Source: Natronorubrum thiooxidans (GTDB lineage: Archaea; Halobacteriota; Halobacteria; Halobacteriales; Natrialbaceae). Taken from it: DNA of 64,000 nt. Shown here one piece after another: positions 52,185 to 58,759 of the stretch. Within the stretch, counting starts at the first letter, position 1, and each line of letters opens with the position of its first letter. The stretch spans positions 124,001 to 188,000 of the forward strand of contig NZ_FTNR01000005.1 of NCBI RefSeq assembly GCF_900156475.1, in the 5' to 3' direction. A program made the translations under genes and the position numbers. The notes under the pieces were generated by a model. The model saw only the letters and a list, made by a program, of their open reading frames with translations, made no database searches and was not told where the DNA came from.

Positions 52185-53867
52185 ATGCCATCGAGCCACA
52201 ATCTTCCGGAGTACGAGCAGGTTCGCGAGGAGTTTAGCTGGGACGAACTCTACGACGCAGCCGACTGGAACGCACCGGACAGCCTGAACATCGCCCACGA
52301 AGTCTGTGATCGCCACGCCGAGAACAAAGAAAAGGTCGCGCTGTATCAGGTGAGCGAGGACGGCGAGCTGACGACGATGACGTTCTGGGAGTTGGCCAAC
52401 CAGACGAGTCAGTTCGCGAACGTCCTCGAGGACCTCGGCATCGAGCAGGGCGACCGGGTCTTTTCCTACATGCCACGGATCCCCGAACACTACGTTGCGC
52501 TGATCGGGACGCTCAAACGCGGGGCTGTCTTCGGCGGCATCAACGAACGGTTCGGCCCCGACGGCATCTCCTATCGGTTGGACGACTGTGACGCGAAGGC
52601 GATCGTCACCACGGCCGACAACCGGGACACCGTTGCAGACGCGCTCGAGGACGCCCCGTCGGTCGAACACGTCATCGTCGTCAGCGACGACGGGACGGGC
52701 CTTCGACGCGGGGACGCCAGCTACCACAGCGAGATGGAAACGGCGAGTCGCGAGTACGAGCCAGCCCAGACGGGCGGCGAGGACGACGCCCTGCTCTACT
52801 ACACCAGCGGGACGACCGGGCTGGCGAAAGGCGTCCGCCACAAACACCGGTGGGTCACCGGCGTCGCCGCCACCCAGAAGTACGCTGTCGACCTCCAGGA
52901 GGGCGACTGCTACTGGTCGACGGGCGACCTGGGGTGGCTGACCGGCCCGATCAACACGCTCGGGGCCTGGTTCTGGGGCACCGCCCTGTTCACCTACGAG
53001 GGCGAGTTCGATCCCGAAACGTGGGCCGACCTGCTCGATGAGTTCCCCATCACGGTCCTGTTCTCGGTTCCCACGGCCTACCGGATGCTGCGCGAACACG
53101 AGGAGGTCCTTGAGGACGTCTCGCTCGACCTGCGCCACGCCTTGTCGATCGGCGAACCGCTCTCGGCGGGCGTCGTCGAGTGGGGTGAAGAGACCCTCGG
53201 CGTGACCATCCACGACACCTACGGCCAGACCGAGACGGGCAACATGATCATCAACAACTACCCGACGATGGAGGTTCGGCCGGGGTCGATGGGCAAGCCG
53301 CTGCCCGGGATCGAGGCCGATATCGTCGATCCGGAGACGGGCGAAGTGCTCGAGCCCGGCGAGACGGGCGAGATCGCCCAGCGTGGGGACTACCCCTGCT
53401 TCTTCGCCGAGTACTGGCAGAAACCCGAAAAGACCGCCGACTGTTTCGTCGACGGCCCCGATGGCGAGTGGTATCTCTCGGGCGATCTCGCACACAAAGA
53501 CGAGGACGGCTACCTCTGGTTCGAGGGCCGGGCTGACGACGTCATCCTCTCGTCGGGCTACCGAATCGGTCCATTCGAGGTCGAAAGCTCACTCGGCGAG
53601 CACGAGGCTGTCGCCGAGGCCGCCGTCGTGCCCAAACCCCACCGCGAACGGGGCAACATCGTGAAAGCCTATATCGTGCCGAGCGAGGGGACGACGACCT
53701 CCGAGGAGCTCAAAGAGGAGGTCAAAGCCCACGTGCGAGACGAACTCTCCGCACACGAGTACCCCCGCGAGATCGAGTTCCGCGAGGAACTGCCCAAGAC
53801 GGTCACCGGGAAGATCCGCCGGACGGAGCTCCAAGACGAGGTCGAGGAGGAAGCCGAAGCGGCCTGA
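52185..53867 (+). CDS. Acyl-CoA synthetase (AMP-forming)
   Basis: A 560-residue adenylating enzyme of the acetyl/medium-chain acyl-CoA synthetase group. All core motifs are in place: YYTSGTTGLAKGV (about 205), YGQTETGNMI (about 345), the ATP-ribose Asp in YLSGDLAHKDEDGYLWFEGRAD, hinge GYRIGPFEVE, and the catalytic lysine in PKTVTGKIRRTEL at the C-terminus. It makes an acyl-CoA from a carboxylate, ATP and CoA. The substrate is unknown; the next genes suggest a medium-chain or branched acid. The ATG is supported by the TATA box. Confidence 0.93.
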   Translation: MPSSHNLPEYEQVREEFSWDELYDAADWNAPDSLNIAHEVCDRHAENKEKVALYQVSEDGELTTMTFWELANQTSQFANVLEDLGIEQGDRVFSYMPRIPEHYVALIGTLKRGAVFGGINERFGPDGISYRLDDCDAKAIVTTADNRDTVADALEDAPSVEHVIVVSDDGTGLRRGDASYHSEMETASREYEPAQTGGEDDALLYYTSGTTGLAKGVRHKHRWVTGVAATQKYAVDLQEGDCYWSTGDLGWLTGPINTLGAWFWGTALFTYEGEFDPETWADLLDEFPITVLFSVPTAYRMLREHEEVLEDVSLDLRHALSIGEPLSAGVVEWGEETLGVTIHDTYGQTETGNMIINNYPTMEVRPGSMGKPLPGIEADIVDPETGEVLEPGETGEIAQRGDYPCFFAEYWQKPEKTADCFVDGPDGEWYLSGDLAHKDEDGYLWFEGRADDVILSSGYRIGPFEVESSLGEHEAVAEAAVVPKPHRERGNIVKAYIVPSEGTTTSEELKEEVKAHVRDELSAHEYPREIEFREELPKTVTGKIRRTELQDEVEEEAEAA

Positions 53868-53955
53868 GAAGGTCCGAGCGCCTCGAGTACAGCGATCGAA
53901 CGACGCGATAGCAGCACCCGGGATGTCCCGGACGCGAGACGATACGAATCCACCG

Positions 53956-55173
53956 ATGAACTTTGAAGACACACACGAACGGTCGATGATCCGCCAGACA
54001 GCGGCGGAGATCGCCGAGCAGTATGGACCGGAACACTGGCGCGAGAAGGAAGAAAACGGCGAGTTCTCCACGGAATTTTGGAACGAACTCGGCGACGCCG
54101 GCTTCCACGGCCTCCTCGTCCCCGAGGAGTACGACGGCGCTGGCATGGGAATGCAAGAGATGGGGCTGGCCATGGAAACGCTCTGTGCCGAGGGTTGTGG
54201 CATGGCCGGCACGTGGTATCTCGTGTTGACCGCCGGGATGGCCGCCGTCGGCATCCGCGAGAACGGCACCGAGGAGCAGAAAGAACTCTACCTGCCCGAC
54301 ATCGCAACCGGCGCGCGTAACTTCTCGATCGGGATCACCGAACCCGAGGCGGGGACAAACACGCTCAACGTCGCCACTCGAGCCGAGAAAGACTCCGCCG
54401 AGCAAAGCTCGGCTGATCCCGCGGAAGCCACCGCTTCCGCGGATGGCGACGAGTACGTCCTCAACGGCAAGAAGGCGTGGATCACGTTCGCAGATCGGGC
54501 CGACAACATGATCCTCGTCACGCGGACGACACCCCGCGAGGAGGTCGACCGCGGCACCGACGGGATCAGCTTGTTCGTCGTCGATATGGACGATCCGAAC
54601 ATCGACGTCTCGCCGATCTCCAAACACGCGATGAACTACTCGAAGTCGTGTGAGGTCTTCTTCGAGGACGTCCGCGTGCCCGAGGAGAACCTGCTCGGCG
54701 AGGAAGACGACGGCTGGTGGGTGCTGGTCGACATGCTCAACCCAGAGCGAATCGGCTTTGCGGCCGCCGGCACCGGAATCGGCAAACTCGCCTCGAACGC
54801 AGCGATCCAGTACGCCAACGACCGCGAGATTTTCGGCGCACCGATCGGCACCCATCAGGCCGTCTCGTTCCCGATCACGGAAGCCTACGCCAAAATGGAG
54901 ACAGCCGCGCTCATGCGCGAGAAGGCCGCCTGGCTCTATGATCAGGGCGAAGACTGTGGCTACGAGACCAACGTCGCGAAGGCGACGGCCGTGGACGCCG
55001 GCATCGAGGCAGTCAAACACTCGATGCAGGCCTTTGGCGGCTGGGGATACGCCACGGAGTACGACGTCGAACGCTGGTGGCGCGAGATTAACCTCACGCG
55101 ACTCGCACCCGTCTCCCAGCAGATGGCGTACAACCACATCGGCCAACAGCTCGGCTTCCCCAAATCCTACTGA
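53956..55173 (+). CDS. Acyl-CoA dehydrogenase with an inserted low-complexity loop
   Basis: 405 residues. The N-terminal helical domain starts [22 protein letters not shown]; the FAD domain has [14 protein letters not shown] and [15 protein letters not shown] 16-residue Ser/Ala/Glu insert lies in between (about residues 147-162). The C-terminal end [18 protein letters not shown] is conserved, but the usual 'EGT' general-base segment is replaced by [13 protein letters not shown]. It oxidises an acyl-CoA to the 2-enoyl-CoA and gives electrons to ETF. Start ATG 53956 is preferred over 53923, whose residues look random. Confidence 0.9.
54397..54442. repeat. Two tandem perfect palindromes inside the acyl-CoA dehydrogenase gene
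   Basis: Hairpin 1: GCCGAGC (54397-54403), AAA loop, GCTCGGC (54407-54413). Hairpin 2: CCGCGGAAGC (54419-54428), CACC loop, GCTTCCGCGG (54433-54442). Together they encode the insert in the dehydrogenase and preserve the frame. They look like a small palindromic element inserted in a coding gene. Confidence 0.65.
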
Positions 55174-55175
55174 GC

Positions 55176-56963
55176 ATGTTCGAAAAACTACTGGTCGCGA
55201 ACCGCGGCGAAATCGCCGTTCGCGTCATGAGCGCCTGTGAGGAACTCGGCATTGAGACGGTCGCCGTCTACAGCGACGCCGACCGCGACGCCGGCCACGT
55301 CGACTACGCCGACGAAGCGTACAACGTCGGCCCCGCGCCGGCAAGCGAGTCGTATCTCGACGGCGAGACGATTATCGAGGTCGCCAACCGGGCGGGAGCC
55401 GACGCGATCCACCCCGGCTACGGCTTTCTTGCGGAGAACGCAGCGTTCGCAAGCCAAGTCGAGGAGGCCGAGGGAATCAGCTGGGTCGGTCCCTCGAGCG
55501 ACGCCATGACGGCCTTAGGCGAGAAGACCAACGCTCGCCGGATCATGCAAGCCGCCGACGTCCCGGTCGTGCCTGGGACGACCGAACCCGTCGAGTCGGC
55601 CGCCGAGGTGCGCGAGCTGGGCGCGGAGTTTGGCTACCCGATCGCCATCAAAGCCGAAGGCGGCGGTGGCGGCCGCGGCATGAAGATCGTCCGCGGCGAC
55701 GACGAGGTCGAGGACGCCTTCGAGAGCGCCAAACGCGAAGGCGAAGCCTACTTCGACAACGACTCGGTGTACGTCGAGAAGTTCCTCGAGGCTCCAAAAC
55801 ACGTCGAGGTACAGATTCTCGCAGACGAACACGGCACAGTGTTGCATCTCGGTGAACGAGACTGTTCGCTCCAGCGTCGCCACCAGAAGGTCATCGAAGA
55901 AGCGCCGAGTCCGGCGCTCGACTCGAGACTTCGTGAGGCGATCGGCAACGCGGCCCGGCGGGGCGTCCGCGAGGCCGACTACACGAACGCAGGCACAGTG
56001 GAGTTCCTCGTTGAAGATGGGGAGTTCTACTTTATGGAGGTCAACACCCGGATTCAGGTCGAACACACCGTCAGCGAGGAGGTGACGGGGATCGACATCG
56101 TCCGCGAACAGCTCCGTATCGCGGCCGGCGAGGAACTTCCCTACACGCAAGACGACATCGAGATCGAGGGCCACGCGATGGAGTTCCGGATCAACGCCGA
56201 GAACCCCGCGAACGGGTTCGCGCCGACGCCCGGCACGCTTTCGACCTACGACCCGCCGGGCGGCCTCGGCGTCCGGATCGACGACGCAATCACGAAAGGC
56301 GACGTGATCGCCGGCGACTACGACTCGATGATCGCGAAGCTGATCGTCCGCGCGCCGACGCGAGTGCGCTGTCTCGAGCGCTCCCGACGAGCGCTCGCCC
56401 ACTTCGACGTCGGCGTCGAGACGACGATCCCGTTCCACCGGCTGATGCTCGACGACGAGACGTTCCGCACGGGTGCACACACGACGAACTACCTCGACGA
56501 GACGGTCAGCGACGACGACCTCGCGGCCGCCGTCGAACGCTGGAGCACGGCCGTCGACGACGACGGTGCGACCGGCAGCGGCTCGACGAACGATCTCGTC
56601 GTCGAGGTCGAGGGCCAGCGGTTCGATGTCGCCGTCACTGGAGACGTTCCGCGGGCAGCCAGCGGGAACGGCGGGGCCGACGCGGGCGGCTCCGCGACTG
56701 GATCGACGGCCTCGAGCACCGGCAGCACTGGTAGCGGGCAAGTCACCGCGAGCGACGCGGTTACGGCCGAGATGCAGGGCACTGTGCTCTCCGTGAACGT
56801 CAGCCCGGGCGACCAGGTCGCCCAGGGCGAGGTCGTCTGCGTCCTCGAGGCGATGAAGATGGAAAACGACGTGGTGGCACCGGCCGCCGGCAGCGTTGCG
56901 GACGTTGCCGTGGCGGACGGTGACACAGTTGATATGGGCGACCCACTGGTCGTCTTGGAGTAA
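55176..56963 (+). CDS. accC: Acyl-CoA carboxylase, biotin carboxylase-BCCP fusion
   Basis: 595 residues. The biotin carboxylase domain (1-450) has the ATP loop [14 protein letters not shown] (about 158), [20 protein letters not shown] (about 230) and the [10 protein letters not shown] metal/bicarbonate site (about 287). A linker rich in Gly/Ser/Thr (about 510-540) leads to the biotinyl domain with EAMKMEN (about 567), the lysine of which is biotinylated. It carboxylates biotin with bicarbonate and ATP. The gene starts two bases after the dehydrogenase stop and is followed two bases later by the carboxyltransferase gene. Confidence 0.95.
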
Positions 56964-56965
56964 CG

Positions 56966-58759
56966 ATGGAACTGAGAATCAACACGACGGCAACCGAGCA
57001 GGAAGCAAAGGCGATCGCGAAGGCACTCGCCTCGCATTTCGGCGAGGACGTCGAACTGTACGCCCAAGGGGGCGACGACCTCCTCGCGAGTGTCTCGCCA
57101 GACGTGAGCGCGGGCGACGCGACGACCGAACCGGCGACCAGCGAAACGGCAACCGTCGACGGCGGTAACGCAGAGCCGCTTGGCCCGACCGCTCGAGAGG
57201 AGACGCTGCAAGCCGAGATCGACGACATCCTCGAGGGCGGCCCCGAGAAGTACCGCGAGCGACTCTCCGACCAGGGGAAGCTGTTCGTCCGCGACCGGCT
57301 CGACCTCTGGTTTGGCGAAGACGGCCTGTCGTTCGAAGACGGCAAGTTCGCCAACTTCGACGCGTGGCATCCGAGCGGCCAGGACAGCGACCCCGATTCG
57401 GACGATCGACTGCCCGCGGACGGGCTCATCACCGGCGCTGCCGAGTTCGAGGGTCGAGATCTGCATTTCATGGCCAACGACTTCACCGTCAAAGCGGGGT
57501 CGATGGCCGAGAAAGGCGTCGAGAAGTTCCTCCGGATGCAACAGCGCGCACTGAAAACCGGCCGACCAGTGCTGTACCTGATGGACTCCTCGGGCGGCCG
57601 GATCGACCAGCAAAGCGGCTTCTTCGCGAACCGCGAGGGGATCGGGAAGTACTACTACAACCACTCGATGCTCTCGGGCCGTGTCCCACAGATCTGCGTG
57701 CTCTACGGCCCCTGTATCGCCGGGGCCGCCTACACGCCGATGTTCGCCGACTTCACGATCATGGTTCGGGACGTCTCGGCGATGGCGATCGCCTCCCCGC
57801 GGATGGTCAAGATGGTCACCGGCGAGGAGATCGACCTCCAGGACCTCGGCGGTCCGGACGTCCACGCCAGGCATTCGGGCAGTGCGGACCTGATCGCCGA
57901 AGACGAGGAACATGCCCGCGAACTCGTCGCGAAACTCATCGGCTACCTGCCGGACAACGCAGACGAGAAACCGCCGCGGACGGAAGGGACGGCTCCCGCA
58001 CGGGCACCCGAGGGGATCGATTCCGTCGTCCCACAGGAGCCAAACCGTGGCTACGATATGAACGACGTCATCGAGCGCGTCGTCGACGCCGGCTCGACAC
58101 TCGAGGTCCGCCCGGAGTACGGCCCGGAGATCATCACGTCGTTTGCCCGCATCGACGGCCGACCGATCGGGATCGTCGCCAACCAGCCAAACCACCGCGC
58201 TGGTGCGATCTTCCCCGACGCTGCCGAGAAGGCCGCGGAGTTCATCTGGACCTGCGACGCCTATGACATCCCGCTGTTGTACCTGTGTGACACGCCCGGC
58301 TTCATGGCCGGCTCGCAGGTCGAGAAAGACGGCATCTTAGAGCAAGGCAAGAAGATGATCTACGCGACGTCCTCGGCAACGGTGCCCAAACAGTCCGTCG
58401 TTGTCCGCAAGGCCTACGGCGCGGGGATCTACGCCATGTCGGGGCCGGCCTACGATCCCGAAAGCGTGATCGGCCTGCCGAGCGGCGAGATCGCCATCAT
58501 GGGCCCTGAAGCGGCGATCAACGCCGTCTACGCGAACAAGCTGGCCGCGATCGACGACCCGGACGAACGCGCACGGAAAGAACAGGAGCTGCGCGAGGAG
58601 TACCGCGAGGATATCAACGTCCACCGGATGGCCAGCGAGGTCGTCATCGACGAGATCGTGCCGCCGAGTTCGCTTCGAGAGGAACTCGAGGCCCGCTTTG
58701 CGTTCTACGAGACCGTCGAGAAGGACCTGCCAGACAAGAAACACGGGACGATCCTCTGA
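56966..58759 (+). CDS. Acyl-CoA carboxyltransferase subunit with N-terminal AccE/PccX-like extension
   Basis: 597 residues, about 60-80 longer than typical PccB. Residues 1-34, MELRINTTATEQEAKAI..., have the 'L-R-I ... T-x-E-E-x-A-A-I-x-A-x-L' layout of the small epsilon/PccX subunits that stabilise acyl-CoA carboxylases. A Thr/Ser-rich linker (about 40-75) leads to the CT core: FMANDFTVKAGSMAEKGVEK, LYLMDSSGGRIDQQ, LYGPCIAGAAYTPM and a C-terminal half with GAIFPDAAEKAAEFIW and KKMIYATSSATVP. It accepts carboxyl from biotin onto an acyl- or enoyl-CoA. Operon with accC. Confidence 0.92.
   Translation: MELRINTTATEQEAKAIAKALASHFGEDVELYAQGGDDLLASVSPDVSAGDATTEPATSETATVDGGNAEPLGPTAREETLQAEIDDILEGGPEKYRERLSDQGKLFVRDRLDLWFGEDGLSFEDGKFANFDAWHPSGQDSDPDSDDRLPADGLITGAAEFEGRDLHFMANDFTVKAGSMAEKGVEKFLRMQQRALKTGRPVLYLMDSSGGRIDQQSGFFANREGIGKYYYNHSMLSGRVPQICVLYGPCIAGAAYTPMFADFTIMVRDVSAMAIASPRMVKMVTGEEIDLQDLGGPDVHARHSGSADLIAEDEEHARELVAKLIGYLPDNADEKPPRTEGTAPARAPEGIDSVVPQEPNRGYDMNDVIERVVDAGSTLEVRPEYGPEIITSFARIDGRPIGIVANQPNHRAGAIFPDAAEKAAEFIWTCDAYDIPLLYLCDTPGFMAGSQVEKDGILEQGKKMIYATSSATVPKQSVVVRKAYGAGIYAMSGPAYDPESVIGLPSGEIAIMGPEAAINAVYANKLAAIDDPDERARKEQELREEYREDINVHRMASEVVIDEIVPPSSLREELEARFAFYETVEKDLPDKKHGTIL

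Follow-up and report, generated by a model that had tools for sequence, protein, structure and literature searches.

Palindromic sequences that code for protein have so far counted as a peculiarity of bacteria living inside cells, and a single methanogen has represented the archaea. The Rickettsia palindromic elements (RPE) are 105-146 bp long and form in-frame parts of numerous Rickettsia genes (Ogata 2000, 2002; PMC2229807, PMC10969869, PMC2996958), and Wolbachia likewise has protein-coding palindromic repeats (PMC2229807, PMC10969869, PMC2996958). Among archaea, repeats with coding potential are reported from Methanocaldococcus jannaschii (Suyama 2005, as cited in PMC2229807 and PMC2996958). 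From these citations it is the one precedent we could trace, which agrees with the initial annotation's remark that such units are hardly described in archaea. In open-access full text we found no earlier description of coding palindromes in haloarchaea. According to the available text of PMC3119063, Haloquadratum walsbyi carries PATEs, which are transposase-free, have near-terminal palindromes related to IS605-type transposons, make no target duplication, and have a terminal-only form of 52 bp. The same text describes SMR-A elements of ~110 bp with terminal inverted repeats, which insert into IS605-type palindromes.

The window, i.e., the whole stretch of 64,000 nucleotides from Natronorubrum thiooxidans that was analyzed, includes an acyl-CoA dehydrogenase (ACAD) gene with a short in-frame insert (Table 1). 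The initial annotation had reported a 7-base and a 10-base perfect hairpin side by side here, and both were recovered at exactly those positions, in frame in the ACAD open reading frame (ORF). The Ser/Ala/Glu-rich loop that it described is also present, with 17 residues and not about 16. Very probably, the insert represents one copy of a mobile palindromic element of haloarchaea that is protein-coding, short, non-autonomous, and made of two adjacent hairpins. We label this double-hairpin element, 48-57 bp in total, HPE-1.

Table 1. Coordinates of the ACAD gene, its insert, and associated features in the window.
Feature	Coordinates	Strand	Basis or remark
Acyl-CoA dehydrogenase (ACAD) gene	53956..55173	+	Pfam PF02771, PF02770, PF00441 (N, M, C domains)
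In-frame insert, 51 bp, 17 aa, residues S147-D163	54394..54444	+	Clean 51-bp gap relative to N. sulfidifaciens
Hairpin 1, 7-bp arms, AAA loop, GCCGAGC-AAA-GCTCGGC	54397..54413	+	Sequence; covariation
Hairpin 2, 10-bp arms, CACC loop, CCGCGGAAGC-CACC-GCTTCCGCGG	54419..54442	+	Sequence; covariation
GAC codon at left insert end	54391..54393	+	Pairs with GAT 54442-54444 as GAY...GAY direct repeat
Match to the element's covariance model R1, 78 bits	54391..54444	+	Window copy is among the model's 23

The ACAD start at 53956 corresponds to the MNFED of homologues, and the ORF is open from an ATG at 53923. The gene stands in a row of ORFs (52185-58759) that are acyl-CoA synthetase-like, ACAD, biotin carboxylase-like, and carboxyltransferase-like, an apparent fatty-acid gene cluster; these ORFs were named from sequence, with a Pfam scan for ACAD alone. 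Hairpins by themselves were rejected as proof of an element, since a 10-bp hairpin arises by chance about once or twice per 64 kb in GC-rich DNA, and the window has two, compared with 0-4 in dinucleotide shuffles. Adjacent pairs with arms of at least 7 bp are rare (~3.3 expected in 545 kb of orthologue loci under a Markov model), and folding of the 54-nt RNA gives -34.6 kcal/mol with a z-score of -7.0.

The insert is placed between AEKD and GDEYVLNG of the ACAD. In an AlphaFold2 model built from 38 sequences (mean pLDDT 81.2), insert residues 148-163 have pLDDT <50, with strands at 141-145 and 166-177 on either side; in this model, the kind of structural check that the initial annotation had proposed, the insert is an unstructured turn between two strands. 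This loop position fits the ACAD fold, and the three best aligned PDB relatives contain no comparable insert. The effect on the enzyme is most likely near-neutral. The suggestion that the element had been domesticated was not upheld, as there is no indication that the insert helps the enzyme.

Comparison with orthologues, carried out in detail at empty sites for ACAD alone, shows a recent and clean insertion. Among the 45 family genomes with an orthologue (E <= 1e-150), 42 have a 1164-bp ACAD without the segment and three have the 1215-bp form. This bears out the claim that family members run on without an insert, and the alignment suggested earlier finds the segment missing from most orthologous dehydrogenases. 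The ACAD of Natronorubrum sulfidifaciens (98% protein identity) lacks the insert, and its single gap is exactly 51 bp. At the DNA level, the two genes are ~96% identical along ACAD, and the blocks bordering the gap agree at 57/60 and 38/39 positions. Because the gap is exact and similarity is even on both flanks, the window ACAD carries a clean insertion and is not a replaced gene. Orthologues with an insert were found in Natrinema altunense, in genome G125 of the same genus group, in Halorientalis marina, which has a second ACAD copy without it, and in two Halobacteriales MAGs. For the N. altunense copy, the closest relative without an insert shares 99% protein identity and is missing 51 bp. 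In N. altunense, hairpin 1 has the arms GCCGAGG/CCTCGGC where the window has GCCGAGC/GCTCGGC, which is a compensated change. On an ACAD tree of 148 sequences, we counted at least 16 changes of HPE-1 state, a rough count from a single quick FastTree with loop columns excluded and labels assigned by regular expression.

HPE-1 is also present at many other haloarchaeal loci. The same insert occurs at the same turn in ACAD paralogues of ~45% identity (66-residue query), which belong to several ACAD subfamilies, and a 20-base pattern search found the element in an acyl-CoA synthetase (L190, RTGDLAERD[SAEETSADPREATSASRD]EDGYIW). Starting from the ACAD copies, we built covariance model R1 from 23 copies, in which 97.2% of cells are paired and seven pairs are changed on both sides; the covariation score is 0.318 vs. 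0.128 when shuffled. At E <= 0.01, R1 matches 163 of 392 genomes of the order, some of the weaker ones, near 30 bits, being probably due to chance and a few coming from miscalled loci; matches in relatives span 48-63 bp. In a phylum sample (n = 295), 13 have matches at E <= 0.001, 11 of them inside the order and the two others weak, and HPE-1 is likely confined to haloarchaea.

In other haloarchaea, about twenty genes unrelated to each other contain near-identical hairpin pairs in frame. Hosts supported by Pfam are AMP-binding, Topoisom_bac (topoisomerase I), abhydrolase, PolX, LeuRS, SDR, FAD enzyme, CN_hydrolase, amine oxidase, PurA (adenylosuccinate synthetase), ArgG (argininosuccinate synthase), TrpE (anthranilate synthase), DapD, GGT (gamma-glutamyltranspeptidase), Pus10, M29 peptidase, radical SAM, SRP54/FtsY, TANGO2, wyosine enzyme, and iPGM. 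These copies with compensated arms in unrelated genes agree with the earlier proposal of a dispersed element. The expectation of further copies in the host's own genome did not hold for the exact arms, which gave a single site there; the other R1 matches in that genome are weak, and no recent HPE-1 burst is seen in it.

All 41 loci with both flanks coding, as called by a codon-usage scorer, have the element in sense and in one reading frame (D-x-A-E), with none antisense; the encoded peptide is acidic and consists of Ser/Ala/Glu/Asp for the most part. Read in another frame or orientation, the element would encode a basic or hydrophobic peptide or run into a stop, and such insertions are probably purged. 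A further 28 loci scored as non-coding on both flanks, with lower model scores and some miscalled genes among them, and 21 were mixed; these two classes include hydrolases with unusual codon use (L232, L262). Some HPE-1 copies appear to be intergenic.

A second hairpin family, which we label HPE-2, enters the same ACAD turn. At loci L202 and L203 the turn contains SEARRASARSDAAAEN, derived from a different hairpin. The pattern AGCGAGGCGC-NNN-GCGCCTCGG, searched with up to two mismatches in 125 family genomes, gave 843 matches vs. 63 for the reversed control, with six in the window's own genome. Of 23 HPE-2 loci fetched, 17 were callable with both sides coding, and in each of these the element is in sense and in frame. 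The ACADs of L203 (HPE-2) and L223 (HPE-1) are 89% identical and carry different elements at the same turn, which suggests separate insertion and is hard to explain otherwise. Another ACAD gene (L200, G006:C3) apparently has an insert of each family, in tandem, at the same turn. Topoisomerase I was tried as a clean empty-site test and dropped because linker length differs among relatives; its DLxK...FEAQY linker (L302, L303, and other loci) is of very variable length across haloarchaea and hosts both hairpin families.

Instead of a mobile element, gene conversion or homologous recombination over short tracts might have spread the loop among ACAD genes, which we regard as unlikely. The strongest R1 matches are mostly ACADs, at one position and with conserved flanking codons (AERD/GDEY), and the haloarchaeon Haloferax volcanii is, according to the available text of PMC11276520, polyploid with efficient gene conversion. 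This ACAD-heavy pattern could partly reflect short-tract recombination between ACADs. Against recombination as the whole account, copies are found in unrelated genes, a different hairpin family occupies the same place in orthologues, and the window flanks keep their ~96% identity with the congener that lacks the insert as far as the insertion point, where any tract would have to stop.

The inserted peptides consist of ~68% S/A/E/D with 2.6% hydrophobic residues, as would suit protein-level convergence on acidic Ser/Ala-rich loops at a turn, with the hairpins as a by-product. However, copies in unrelated genes keep the palindromes at the DNA level, with changes in one arm paired by changes in the other, and there are probable intergenic copies. 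Selection on the peptide needs neither the paired changes nor the intergenic copies, and we judge convergence very improbable. We give equally little credence to an origin of the palindromes on the spot, through template switching at local microhomology. In the window ACAD target, GCCGAG, which is part of hairpin 1, lies just upstream of the insert, but it is absent from other targets, and unrelated genes show the same arrangement of two hairpins. That the loop is ancestral in ACADs and was lost in most orthologues is scarcely credible, for although every sampled member of some distant subfamilies has it, filled orthologues sit amid empty ones at 98-99% identity, with exact boundaries and in more than one genus.

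Our preferred reading is a mobile element, and by analogy HPE-1 is best seen as acting like the Rickettsia palindromic elements, yet shorter and double. As in Rickettsia and Wolbachia, palindromes are in frame in many unrelated housekeeping genes, fall into more than one family, and encode unstructured segments; palindromic repeats in those bacteria also occur intergenically. HPE-1 shares with RPE-like elements in general a self-complementary repeat with many copies at unrelated sites, in frame in conserved genes that have orthologues without the insert. It is set apart by description from RPE proper (105-146 bp), being haloarchaeal, 51 bp long in the window, and composed of two separate adjacent hairpins. 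We file it as a variant of protein-coding palindromic elements and not as an RPE. The M. jannaschii repeats, as characterized in the papers that cite them, are also archaeal palindromes inside protein genes and are likened to HPE-1 by description; their host is a methanogen, unlike the haloarchaeal hosts here.

Miniature inverted-repeat transposable elements (MITEs) have a target duplication and terminal inverted repeats shared with a transposon. At the ends of HPE-1 we saw GAY...GAY, at most 3 bp. Going by the available account in PMC3119063, the 52-bp PATE form has a layout similar to HPE-1, but PATE palindromes resemble IS605 ends and HPE-1 hairpins, compared with those upstream of 30 Y1 transposases, do not. 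The SMR-A elements are longer than HPE-1 and have terminal inverted repeats, and in contrast to HPE-1, no in-frame coding copies of PATEs or SMRs are described in that account.

HPE-1 would insert into haloarchaeal DNA with little or no target duplication and would survive in genes when in frame and at a protein-surface turn. No clear target duplication was found among the copies, the GAY...GAY at the ends being not always identical; this direct repeat is possibly a target duplication of 2-3 bp or else an element end. We saw no outer inverted repeat in the element and identified no parent transposon. No transposase is encoded in the element, from which we infer that its copies are mobilized in trans; the enzyme may be a hairpin-recognizing transposase of the single-strand type (Y1, IS200/IS605-type) or a similar one. 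Such trans mobilization by a hairpin-recognizing transposase is our leading guess, and a tentative one. The hairpins that precede 30 Y1 transposases of haloarchaea differ from those of the element; three of these loci show other double hairpins, one inside an IS end. At L369 (G212:C2), the left-end palindrome of an IS605-type element contains a double hairpin of 57 bp that differs in sequence from HPE-1 and is located ~150-210 bases upstream of a Y1 transposase; the close copy L389 is empty at this place and has matching flanks. The filled and empty sites indicate that double-hairpin units do insert in haloarchaea, and insertion into an IS605-type palindrome is a trait that L369 has in common with SMR-A as described in PMC3119063.

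HPE-1 would equip proteins with a short, flexible loop, and HPE elements would account for the Ser/Ala/Glu-rich inserts that recur in enzymes of haloarchaea and could be misread as salt adaptation. More speculatively, several still-moving double-hairpin families may have placed hundreds of acidic loops in housekeeping proteins, with insertion itself favoring sites such as the ACAD turn, which two unrelated hairpin families have entered; we think this possible though doubtful. An order-wide set in free-living archaea, some of them genetically tractable, would make movement, neutrality, and the contribution to new protein loops directly testable. In a phosphoglycerate mutase gene (L199, ~1630-1740), several differing short palindromes adjoin in frame: GAGACGCC...GGCGTCTC, CCGGAGTC...GACTCCGG, GCCGAGC...GCTCGGC, and CCATCTCGC...GCGAGATGG.
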